A stretch of DNA of 64,000 nt from an uncultured Ruminococcus sp. (GTDB taxonomy: Bacteria > Bacillota > Clostridia > Oscillospirales > Ruminococcaceae), in NCBI GenBank assembly GCA_947627275.1, contig CANQVK010000005.1:1-64000 (forward strand), in the 5' to 3' direction. This document shows positions 11,443 to 58,757 of the stretch, piece after piece. Position 1 is the stretch's first letter. The number at the start of each line of letters is the position of its first letter. Position numbers and translations under genes: made by a program. The notes under the pieces were generated by a model that saw only the letters and a list, made by a program, of their open reading frames with translations, did no database searches and had not been told where the DNA came from.

Positions 11443-11849
11443 ACTATCTGCAACTTAAGAGGAATTTGCTGCCCTTTACTCTATGTTAAAGAGGTAACTC
11501 TTAGAAACCAATATCGTAAATTTTCCTGTATAAAGCAATGTAAACTTAAATTTAAAATAAATAAAACGGCTTTATACAGGTAAATTTACGACAACAGAGA
11601 TTCCAAAGGGGTCACCCCTTTGGCAGGGGGTGCAGGGGGACAGAGTCCCCCTGCTTAAGGCAACACCGCACAAAGACCGGCTAATGCCTTTGCACGTCAT
11701 CTGCTTGCATATTTTCCGTCAGCTTACACAAAAACTCCTTGACATACGACAGTATGTCTGCGTCGTTTTTATGCAAGCTGACGAAAAATCTGACTGCGCA
11801 TCTGACGCACAATCTCTGTGCGGTGTTGCCTTAAGTTGTAGACAGTGAA
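11443..11849 (+). repeat. Family A composite element, copy A1 (contains element D)
   Basis: Bounded by inverted CACTATCTGCAACTTAAG (left) and CTTAAGTTGTAGACAGTG (right). Inside, in order: near-palindrome AAGAGGTAACTCTT; long hairpin with 22-nt arms at 11515-11536 and 11569-11590 (21 of 22 paired); hairpin CCAAAGGGG/CCCCTTTGG (11603-11623); hairpin GCAGGGGGAC/GTCCCCCTGC (11632-11654); then element D. No ORF within it is convincing. Confidence 0.75.
11655..11834. repeat. Element D: palindromic MITE-like repeat
   Basis: About 180 bp with terminal inverted repeats TTAAGGCAACACCGCACAAAG / CTCTGTGCGGTGTTGCCTTAA (a few mismatches). The centre carries CCTTGACATACGACAGTATG, a core also seen in family C. 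It abuts the last hairpin of A1 and provides the right end of that composite. Confidence 0.7.
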
Positions 11850-20901: not shown

Positions 20902-21072
20902 ACACGCAAATCAATTTTTGAAATTTTATTTGTCAGGATTGTGTATGTGTAGGGACACGGCGTGCCGTGTCCACCTTGTGTTTCTTGAGATTTCGCACGG
21001 ACATGGCACGCCGCGTCCCTACGAAAGCAGGTATATCCCAATTATTTTTCTCAAAATTGATTTGCGTGGAGG
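20902..21072. repeat. Family B MITE-like repeat, copy B1
   Basis: Ends CACGCAAATCAATTTTTGA / TCAAAATTGATTTGCGTGG are inverted. Inside are two facing copies of the near-palindrome GGACACGGCGTGCCGTGTCC, each next to GTAGGGA. No ORF. B1, the relic above and the promoter below fill the gap from 20693 to 21200. Confidence 0.75.
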
Positions 21073-47670: not shown

Positions 47671-47831
47671 TATACTAAACGCTATAGCCAAACGCGCAAT
47701 AAATGACAAGCAGATTTTGCACATAGCAAGGCGGAGGACGCAGGCATACTGTCGTATGGCAAGGACGACAACGATGCAATGTGTAAAATATGCTGTCAGA
47801 TATGCGTGATTTGCTATAGCGTTTAGTATAA
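47671..47831. repeat. Family C MITE-like repeat, copy C1
   Basis: About 160 bp. Ends TATACTAAACGCTATAGC and GCTATAGCGTTTAGTATA are perfect inverted repeats. The core includes CATACTGTCGTATGGCAAGG, whose reverse complement recurs in element D. Nearly identical to C2 at 53562. It could fold as one long stem. Confidence 0.8.
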
Positions 47832-53529: not shown

Positions 53530-53561
53530 AAATATGTGTAGGAAAACACAATAATATTTTC

Positions 53562-53719
53562 TACTAAACGCTATAGCAAAACACGCAATAAATGACAAGC
53601 AGATTTTGCACATAGCAAGGCGGAGGACGCAGGAATACTGTCGTATGGCAAGGACGACAACGACGCTGTGTGTAAAATATGCTGTCAGATATGCGTGATT
53701 TGCTATAGAGTTTAGTATA
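53562..53719. repeat. Family C MITE-like repeat, copy C2
   Basis: Almost the same sequence as C1 (47671): CTACTAAACGCTATAGCA / TGCTATAGAGTTTAGTATA ends and core ATACTGTCGTATGGCAAGGA. The right end meets AAGGAG, the likely ribosome site of the YitT-type gene. Confidence 0.8.
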
Positions 53720-53724
53720 AGGAG

Positions 53725-56254: not shown

Positions 56255-56302
56255 GAGCTTGTTCAGTATCTCCTCACGCACGCCGAGATACTGAACAGGC
56301 TC
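56255..56302. repeat. Family G hairpin, copy G1 (also acts as terminator)
   Basis: Arms GAGCTTGTTCAGTATCTC / GAGATACTGAACAGGCTC with loop CTCACGCACGCC. It lies in the convergent gap between the dockerin gene and cobO. Confidence 0.7.
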
Positions 56303-56862: not shown

Positions 56863-56910
56863 AGAGCCTGTTCAGTATCTCCTCACACGCTGAGATACTA
56901 AACAGGCTCT
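56863..56910. repeat. Family G hairpin, copy G2
   Basis: Arms AGAGCCTGTTCAGTATCTC / GAGATACTAAACAGGCTCT with loop CTCACACGCT. It lies upstream of cobO, in the same orientation as G1 when judged by the loop. Confidence 0.75.
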
Positions 56911-56924
56911 ATGCTCGTTATTAA

Positions 56925-57084
56925 TAGACCTCCTCGGAAACTAACGCACACCGTCTGACAAATCTTTTGCCATATGGCTGCGTTATCCTCCTCAGAGGGC
57001 GTCAGCCCGCTTTCGTCGTCTGCCTTGCCATATGACAAAATCTTTAGTCATACGGCTGCACTTTAGTTCCCGAGGAGGTCTAAT
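56925..57084. repeat. Element E: palindromic MITE-like repeat overlapping the htrA stop
   Basis: Ends AATAGACCTCCTCGGAAACTAA and TTAGTTCCCGAGGAGGTCTAAT are inverted repeats. The centre has CCTTGCCATATGACA, related to the core of C and D. The right end contains the CTA that encodes the TAG stop of htrA on the minus strand. Confidence 0.72.
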
Positions 57085-58492
57085 CTTTTGGAGCTTCGGT
57101 TTTGCCTTCGGATTGTTCGGGATTCATTTCATCGTGCGCTTCCTGTAGTACAAGAGGAATATCAAGATCCTGACCGTTGCGGTATATTTTAAGAGTTACG
57201 GTATCTCCTGCCTTGAACTGATTTTTGATATTATTCAGTTCGTCTGCGGTAGCAACAGCTTCATCGTTTATTCCGATTATAACGTCGCCCTCTTTAATGC
57301 CTGCTTCTTCGGCAGCACCGCCCTCGGCTACCATACGGACATAGATTCCCATAGGAAGTCCGAGATAGCTTGAATAGGTTTCGGTAATATCAACAGTGGA
57401 AACGCCTATCTGAGGTCTGCCCGAAACGTAGCCCTTGTTAATAAGGTCGTCAATGATAGCCTTTGCGTCGTTTATCGGGATAGCAAATCCAAGACCCTCG
57501 ACGGAAGCCGTACCGTAGCTTGACGACATTTTCGCCGAATTTATACCGATGACCTGACCGCAGCTGTTGAGCAGCGGACCGCCCGAGTTGCCCGAATTAA
57601 TGGCGGCGTCGGTCTGAATAAGCGTCATATTTTTTTCGTTAATTGAGATCTGACGGTTGAGAGCTGAAACAATACCGCTTGTGACAGAGCCGAAAAGCTC
57701 GAAGCCGAGAGGATTTCCGACGGCAATAACGACTTCGCCGACACGCAGTTCGTCGCTGTTTCCGAAGGTTGCGGGAGTAAAGCCCGAAGCGTCTATTTTC
57801 AGCACGGCGAGGTCTGTTTCAACATCGAAGGCGATGATTTTCGCATCGTATTCTTTTTCATCGCTGAAAAGGACGGATACTTCCTTAGCTTCGCCGGCGT
57901 CATATTCTTCGGAATAAACTACGTGAGCGTTTGTGACGATGTAGCCGTCCTCGGTCATAACGATACCCGTTCCCGTTCCGACCATTTCACGAGTTTCGGG
58001 CTGACTTTGGAAACCCCAGCCCCACGGCGAAATAGTGTTTGAATTATTGTAGGTCACCTCAAAGGTAGATGAAACGCCTACAACTGACGGCATAATTTCA
58101 TCGACTATATCGGGGAGATATTTTGCGTCTGTTCGTGAAGCAATATCAAACAGTCCCGGGAGGTTCTGCGGTTCGGGAACAGACGGAGTATTTTCGGAGT
58201 TGGATTTGGAGGCGCTTACAGAATCGGAGGATTCTTCCCTGTTGCTTTTTTCAGATTCATCGGTAAGCTTTATATTGCTGTCGTCCATAAAGCGATAGAG
58301 CTGTATTCCTCCTGCGCAGCCTATGCCGACGGAAAGGATAAGGGCTATGGCTTTCAGGGCAGAATGGCTTTTGGGCTTTTTAGGCTTCTGCGGCGGTGTA
58401 TTACCCGAATAATAGGAAAAATTTCCTTCGGACTGATTATATTCATCGCCGTTATTTTTATCATTGTTATAATTATTATACATATCCGACAT
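57080..58492 (-). CDS. htrA: HtrA/DegP-like membrane serine protease with PDZ domain
   Basis: Quality-control protease at the cell surface. The 470-residue protein starts with an Asn/Tyr-rich cytoplasmic part (1-45). One membrane helix follows (about 46-65, ALKAIALILSVGIGCAGGIQL), then a Ser-rich linker. The trypsin-like domain (about 120-330) has its triad in NAHVVYS (His), TDLAVLKID (Asp) and GNSGGPLL (Ser). A PDZ domain follows (about 355-445, IKEGDVIIGINDEAV). The start at 58492 has GAGGTAACGCAT before it, better than the track start at 58513. The end is shared with repeat E, whose terminal bases supply the stop codon. Confidence 0.93.
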   Translation of the reverse strand: MSDMYNNYNNDKNNGDEYNQSEGNFSYYSGNTPPQKPKKPKSHSALKAIALILSVGIGCAGGIQLYRFMDDSNIKLTDESEKSNREESSDSVSASKSNSENTPSVPEPQNLPGLFDIASRTDAKYLPDIVDEIMPSVVGVSSTFEVTYNNSNTISPWGWGFQSQPETREMVGTGTGIVMTEDGYIVTNAHVVYSEEYDAGEAKEVSVLFSDEKEYDAKIIAFDVETDLAVLKIDASGFTPATFGNSDELRVGEVVIAVGNPLGFELFGSVTSGIVSALNRQISINEKNMTLIQTDAAINSGNSGGPLLNSCGQVIGINSAKMSSSYGTASVEGLGFAIPINDAKAIIDDLINKGYVSGRPQIGVSTVDITETYSSYLGLPMGIYVRMVAEGGAAEEAGIKEGDVIIGINDEAVATADELNNIKNQFKAGDTVTLKIYRNGQDLDIPLVLQEAHDEMNPEQSEGKTEAPKD

Positions 58493-58582
58493 ATGCGTTA
58501 CCTCGTTTCGCATTTCATTACATTATATATTATAAGCAGTTATGTGATAATTATATGATAACCTACGGAAAAAATAAAATAA

Positions 58583-58757
58583 AAATGCGCCATGCTAATA
58601 CTAATCTCTGACCGAACTGATGAAAATCTTCACCGCCATCCACTCGCTGCTTGTTGTCAAAACCTCTTGGAGGGATTTTTCCTAAATCAGCAAGCGCCTG
58701 TCAGCAAATCTTTTCATCAAACCGATCAGAGATTAGTATGAAAAAACACGGCGCATC
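58583..58757 (-). terminator. Split terminator with element F in its loop
   Basis: On the minus strand ATGCGCCGTG pairs with CATGGCGCAT (one G-U pair) and is followed by TTTTATTTT. The two arms are separated by the 142-bp element F. It lies after the thioesterase gene. Confidence 0.6.
58598..58739. repeat. Element F: palindromic repeat
   Basis: Ends ATACTAATCTCTGACCG and CGATCAGAGATTAGTAT are inverted, next to ACTGATGAAAATCTT / ATCTTTTCATCAAACC. The centre holds TCAGCAAGCGCCTGTCAG. About 142 bp, no ORF, different termini from C, D and E. Confidence 0.7.

Follow-up and report, generated by a model that had tools for sequence, protein, structure and literature searches.

Palindromic elements of the window

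The window, by which we mean the whole 64-kb stretch of DNA that was analysed, contained four short palindromic elements with three kinds of ends, designated C (two copies, C1 and C2), D and E. An initial annotation of the DNA had described them as palindromes with family-specific ends, and all were present with the ends it gave: C1 at 47671-47831, C2 at 53559-53720, D at 11654-11835 and E at 56925-57082. Their limits, target duplications and interior cores are as follows.

47673..47828, + strand (the best-folding strand): element C1, 156 bp, ends TACTAAACGCTATAGC; TA at 47671-47672 and 47829-47830
47727..47776, + strand: shared hairpin core of C1, GCAGG-CATAC-TGTC-GTATG-GCAAGG; structure model, 60.9 bits, E=1.9e-17
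53562..53717, + strand: element C2, the second C copy; left flanking TA mutated to TC
53616..53665, + strand: shared hairpin core of C2; structure model, 51.9 bits
11659..11830, - strand: element D, 172 bp, ends GGCAACACCGCAC; TTAA target duplication at 11655-11658 and 11831-11834
11725..11774, - strand: shared hairpin core of D; structure model, 64.4 bits
56926..57081, - strand: element E, 156 bp, ends AGACCTCCTCGGAAAC; AAT target duplication at 56923-56925 and 57082-57084
56978..57027, - strand: true core of E, from comparison with a sister copy (L096) and the structure model, 44.4 bits, a match that is partly by construction since relatives of E were included in the model
57023..57037, + strand: CCTTGCCATATGACA, proposed in the initial annotation as E's match to the core; the outer CAAGG internal-loop repeat, not the core

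The core reported to be common to C and D was indeed shared. The 20-mer had three matches in the window, at 11737 (+) in D, 47745 (-) in C1 and 53634 (-) in C2, against a mean of 0.01 in shuffled sequence. In C1 the core as first defined (47745-47764) is the complement of the hairpin core, and folding of C1 was predicted to release -72.7 kcal/mol on the + strand versus -62.4 kcal/mol on the other strand. The counterpart proposed for E was ~30 bp off register, the apex of E lying elsewhere. This apex is GGGC-GTCA-GCCC (56997-57008), with its stem at 56997-57000/57005-57008 and the loop GTCA at 57001-57004, such that GGGC/GCCC stands in for CATAC/GTATG and the loop type is unchanged. The sister copy of E carried the classic CATACGACAGTATG exactly at the position of the E apex.

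One end of E overlaps a trypsin-like protease gene (57080-58513, minus strand); the stop codon of this gene (57080-57082) straddles the E end, so the insertion of E defines the C-terminus of the protease. Two ~47 bp elements with G-type ends (GAGCCTGTTCAGTATCT), at 56255-56302 and 56864-56909, lie on both sides of a small gene. A further palindrome with TACTAA ends (58598-58739) was unmatched by the core model, yet was strand-asymmetric in predicted folding (-67.3 versus -44.0 kcal/mol), and may be a diverged relative.

Core, ends and partner transposases

Ordinary MITE families have common ends and variable interiors. The reverse arrangement, which the initial annotation had proposed from the window, was confirmed by alignment: identity was high at the apex and low at the ends. 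Among 16 representatives of differing end types, identity was 0.87-0.90 in the 10 nt on each side of the loop, 0.81 in the apical loop and ~0.3-0.45 further out, with values of 0.29-0.41 beyond ~24 nt from the loop and at the ends. The inner 84 nt aligned without gaps within each of two architectures, by which the suggested common origin of the core is well supported. The interiors of C, F, E, G and T carried CAAGG twice, 33 bp apart, beside the apex and in the outer internal loop.

A search of the 2.44-Mb genome with the core CCTTGNCATANGNCANTATG alone gave 53 matches with ≤2 mismatches, far above chance, versus 2 for a reversed control pattern. Grouping of the matches by their termini revealed at least six end types in the genome, namely C (TACTAAACGCTATAGC), F (TACTCGCCGCTATTGC), G (GAGCCTGTTTAGTATCT), E (AGACCTCCTCGG), D (GGCAACACCGCAC) and an TACTTCCCTCTATTGC type, with additional end types in other Ruminococcus and Clostridia genomes. 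The core was nearly always the apex of a palindromic element of ~156-172 bp and was not a motif scattered at random sites without inverted repeats: 32 of the 35 distinct core sites inspected were within an inverted-repeat element, and of the remaining three, one belonged to a truncated copy of C, one to a decayed copy of F and one appeared to be a chance match.

The elements agreed with MITEs in size and structure (156-172 bp, terminal inverted repeats and a gene-free interior) and in being dispersed as near-identical copies with target duplications; C alone had ~25 full-length copies with 96-100% identity in the 2.44-Mb genome. In these features C, D and E are MITEs, except that the defining constant part sits inside.

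The target duplications fell into several classes. TA flanked 27 of 30 C copies and 42 of 48 F copies, an invariant TA that shuffled flank pairs cannot test as a duplication. A 3-bp ANT duplication (ATT, AAT, ACT) was present in 17/24 E copies (8.0 in shuffled flank pairs) and a 3-bp TNA duplication (TAA, TTA, TCA) in 18/19 G copies (11.0 in shuffled pairs). The duplication was 4 bp in D (30/43, versus 10.6 shuffled), where it was mostly TTAA, and in H (4/5, versus 0.7 shuffled). An empty site was provided by C insertions within F copies: at L008 the joined flanks matched an intact F at 96/102 bases across a single TA. A second such site lies in a transposase pseudogene of the ISAs1 type, which an E copy interrupts with ACT duplicated at the insertion.

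Two C copies (L028 and L029) lacked the 33-nt core, which was deleted between short direct repeats, and retained intact ends. The 33-nt core was also missing from F copies of 123-127 bp with intact ends, and E occurred additionally as multi-copy ~80-bp elements that consisted of the ends only. Because such coreless C, F and E copies exist, movement probably does not require the core. A chimeric element (L047/L027, G000:C9:76520-76679) combined one F end with one C end, the junction being the core. In the genome as a whole, C and F ends were often solitary (231 end matches, many of them unpaired).

The initial annotation had proposed looking for a gene, of a transposase or recombinase, flanked by ends that contain the core. 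This idea was not supported: the search revealed IS5-family elements that have matching or similar ends and lack the core. In related genomes, D ends were present on the IS5-family element L389 (NF033581, E=1.3e-93) and H ends on L391 (NF033581, E=2.1e-83). E-like ends were found on L399, which matched HTH_Tnp_4 only, and GAACC/GAGCC-type (G-like) ends on L402 and L404, which matched DUF4096 and had NF033580 matches (E=1e-26 and 4e-30) just under the cut-off. The partner transposases are in differing IS5 profile groups (NF033581 versus NF033580; DUF772 versus DUF4096 versus HTH_Tnp_4). The core was not found in these partner elements, and the model matches at L397 and L402 were separate MITE copies. 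Since IS5 elements carry such ends without the core, ends and core have separate histories, and as the ends differ, different kinds of enzyme would move the families. The ISL2, IS1031, IS5 and IS427 groups are typified by 3-bp ANT, 3-bp TNA, 4-bp YTAR and TA duplications, respectively.

No C, E, F or G end pairs that lie 0.5-3.5 kb apart and enclose a transposase were found in this draft genome. No autonomous partner was seen in it either, the single PF01609 match being the ISAs1 pseudogene, and none with C ends was found when related genomes were included. Two C end pairs, of 1.2 kb and 0.8 kb, were rejected as autonomous elements as each proved to be two separate MITEs, and D end pairs at kb distance at other loci were rejected as they enclosed ordinary genes. 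Two near-identical hairpin elements with GAACCTGT ends, in inverted orientation, bracket an ISAs1-family transposase gene that looks intact at L397 (G002:C2).

Predicted fold of the shared interior

In the structure model the core forms the apical part of a hairpin that is specific to one strand. Of the cells in the alignment of the 50-nt core, 94.8% pair, and both-sided changes occurred in 9 of 11 core pairs. The covariation score of the core was 0.313 versus 0.109 in shuffled alignments (0/500 shuffles) and at most 0.108 in a control with slid partners, and in the D/H arms 13/30 pairs covaried (0/500 shuffles), values to be read with the reservation that related sequences can beat shuffles without structure, which counts of pairs and pair types rarely do. 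The TGNC loop (GNCA on the strand of the initial annotation) and the flanking CGMAG/CAAGG letters are fixed while the stems change. The exchanges in the stems include ATA/TAT to GGG/CCC in E, as well as GTGC/GCAC, AATAC/GTATT and CATAT/ATATG.

The strand opposite to that on which the core was first defined was predicted to be more stable as RNA by a mean of 6-37 kcal/mol in all ten end groups. Every element was asymmetric in this sense among those of types D (39/39), C (18/18), G (13/13) and T (12/12), whereas a few members (L213 and the L027 chimera) lacked the asymmetry. Mispairs in the outer 20 nt of the favoured strand were G.T in 47 cases versus A.C in 7 in the summed family table; with one count per family and position, the outer 25 nt had 30 G.T versus 10 A.C mispairs. 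In the D/H alignment G.U pairs arose via both C-to-U and A-to-G changes. No preference for G.U was found among 22 recent substitutions in C copies (4 versus 5), so that a constraint, if any, would act on lineages rather than on single insertions. The orientation of the elements relative to neighbouring genes showed no significant bias (tandem 20 versus 12, p=0.22).

These patterns bear on the suggestion that the core is a recognition site for a protein. A plain double-stranded DNA site is made less likely, and a folded single strand likelier, because the stems covary and G.T mispairs exceed A.C mispairs. If the hairpin acts as RNA, the relevant strand would be the GGCATACTGNCGTATG strand (predicted RNA).

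Interpretation of the shared interior

The explanation that we favour, with a probability of about 0.68, is that C, D and E are IS5-type MITEs with one inherited interior hairpin, whose ends have been exchanged and whose fold has been selected as RNA or ssDNA. The ends of each family would be cut in trans by that family's own transposase (C/F at TA, E at ANT, G at TNA and D/H at TTAA-like targets), and the interior would form a single-strand hairpin of ~80-110 nt with a fixed TGNC loop, fixed CGMAG/CAAGG internal loops and covarying stems. The module would outlive its carrier transposon families by gaining new ends, most likely via recombination or template switching at the shared core between nested or neighbouring elements, where one arm could serve as template for its partner owing to the hairpin shape. 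We infer that end exchange is the route by which new ends arise and, with less certainty, that selection acts on the hairpin in its RNA or ssDNA form; for example, a structure formed in read-through transcripts and bound by a host protein might make insertions tolerable. Counting against this reading are the non-significant orientation bias, the lack of a G.U preference among recent C substitutions, the few members that are not asymmetric, the asymmetry of the palindrome at 58598-58739 that the model does not match, and the failure to find an autonomous partner in the draft genome.

The near-invariant loop and internal-loop sequences across species would also be accounted for if the core were a double-stranded DNA site for a host factor, for a recombinase or for a REP/RAYT-like ssDNA transposase, with the hairpin incidental. 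CATAC-N4-GTATG is itself a short palindrome, and a transposase that binds hairpins in ssDNA would likewise explain the fixed loop. A double-stranded site would not, however, tolerate the paired exchange of stems with the loop kept (GGG/CCC, GTGC/GCAC, AATAC/GTATT, CATAT/ATATG), and the clean IS-type duplications differ from the insertion pattern without target duplications of a REP-like system, which makes this explanation unlikely. Plain descent with drift, in which a single MITE lineage slowly diverged in its ends and transposases while the core was conserved through youth alone, agrees with the inner ~80 nt being alignable between families and with the likeness of some end types (C, F and T, all TACT...). 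The target duplications nevertheless differ by class (2, 3 ANT, 3 TNA and 4), IS5 profiles assign the partner transposases to different groups, and uniform youth does not give an identity of 0.87-0.90 near the loop and ~0.4 from ~24 nt outwards; we regard drift as decidedly unlikely.

Long palindromes are prone to template-switch correction. Pairing of the arms could in principle be a mutational artefact of such quasi-palindrome correction, with the G.T excess arising by strand-biased deamination and the fold not being selected; the C/F chimera, which represents an exchange at the core, is in keeping with this. It is highly improbable, though, given that correction would not hold the TGNC loop and the unpaired CGMAG/CAAGG identical across genera, and that deamination on one strand would give only C-to-U and not the A-to-G changes that also produce G.U in D/H. 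There is scarcely any likelihood that the interior is a protein-coding insert resembling the Rickettsia palindromic elements and kept for an ILSYGKDDND-like peptide: open frames do cross the core in both directions, but the best open frame puts the variable positions of CGMAGRCATACTGNCGTATGKCRAGG at the first and second positions of codons, and the elements checked were between genes.

The findings that carry the favoured reading, of an inherited hairpin with exchanged ends, suggest that the hairpin, and not the transposon ends, is the unit that persists in gut Clostridia. A broader version, in which the hairpin is an independent mobile unit across the class and the ends of unrelated transposons are an interchangeable vehicle, is tentative and somewhat less probable than its opposite. 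MITEs are usually classed by their ends, with interiors seen as degenerate filler. In the present elements it is the interior that is conserved; it has a one-strand fold with compensating changes, and at least four transposition systems carry it across Clostridia. An expressed and bound hairpin would represent an undescribed structured RNA or DNA hairpin of which common gut bacteria have dozens of copies per genome, and would offer a natural test of how non-autonomous elements switch transposase. Should it be an independent unit, the interior and not the ends would be what defines this class of mobile non-coding element. As many copies are within a few hundred bases of genes, the hairpin may affect mRNA ends and may be misannotated as small proteins.

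Comparison with IS5-derived MITEs of the ISL2, IS1031, IS5 and IS427 groups showed the elements to be alike in being short, palindromic and gene-free, in having IS-type ends and short duplications, and in the presence of IS5-family genes with matching or similar ends in related genomes; the difference is that one interior is common to at least four classes of target duplication. TIMEs and mosaic non-autonomous transposons, according to PMC4133298, are Tn3-derived inverted-repeat elements that generate mosaic mobile units; relative to that description, it is here the inside rather than the ends that is common to several transposon types. REP/REPIN sequences with RAYT (PMC2817692, PMC3116915) are likewise repeated hairpins spread through one clade. 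PMC3733652 defines a REP as a palindrome of 20-40 bp that is tagged with GTAG or CGTC at one of its ends, whereas the present elements are 156-172 bp long with IS-type ends and target duplications. For QMITE2 and similar elements the full-length MITE transcript is predicted to be a long hairpin (PMC10969869, PMC5896051); the portions of these papers that were available describe one end family, whereas here one core with covariation extends across many end families. The Rickettsia palindromic elements are ~150 bp palindromes of about ten families that lie in-frame in genes, as stated in PMC10969869, and contrast with the elements described here, which were intergenic wherever the flanks were examined.

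Within the class, 42 of the 341 genomes sampled had a match to the covariance model of the core, and these represented 29 of 203 genera. In the sample of 399 genomes from the phylum there were 8, three of them in genomes already known. D elements are present in Ruminococcus flavefaciens FD-1, a culturable carrier. In other families of the class the hairpin was present in other repeat types, which included inverted hairpin pairs ~70 nt apart that recall REPINs. The core was present on one viral contig; an origin from a phage or plasmid was rejected, as C was unmatched in phage and plasmid collections. No prior description of the module was found in the open literature, a scope outside which most subscription papers fall. 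Comparison with Rfam 15, at the gathering score for the window and at permissive thresholds for 31 loci, gave no family match, only tRNAs reaching the gathering score. Sub-threshold Rfam matches to SNORA31 and MIR396, which overlap D, and to Clostridiales-2, beside D, were judged to be chance.

In other genomes of the class (L354, L362, L367 and L369) the hairpin was within longer palindromes. ARAGORN found no tRNA at these four loci; the ends of the palindromes resemble a tRNA T-arm and acceptor (GGTTCGATTCCCGTGTGC). Another abundant hairpin repeat, GTAGGGACACGGCGTGCCGTGTCC, was present in the window at 20949-21022 and at several sampled places in the genome.
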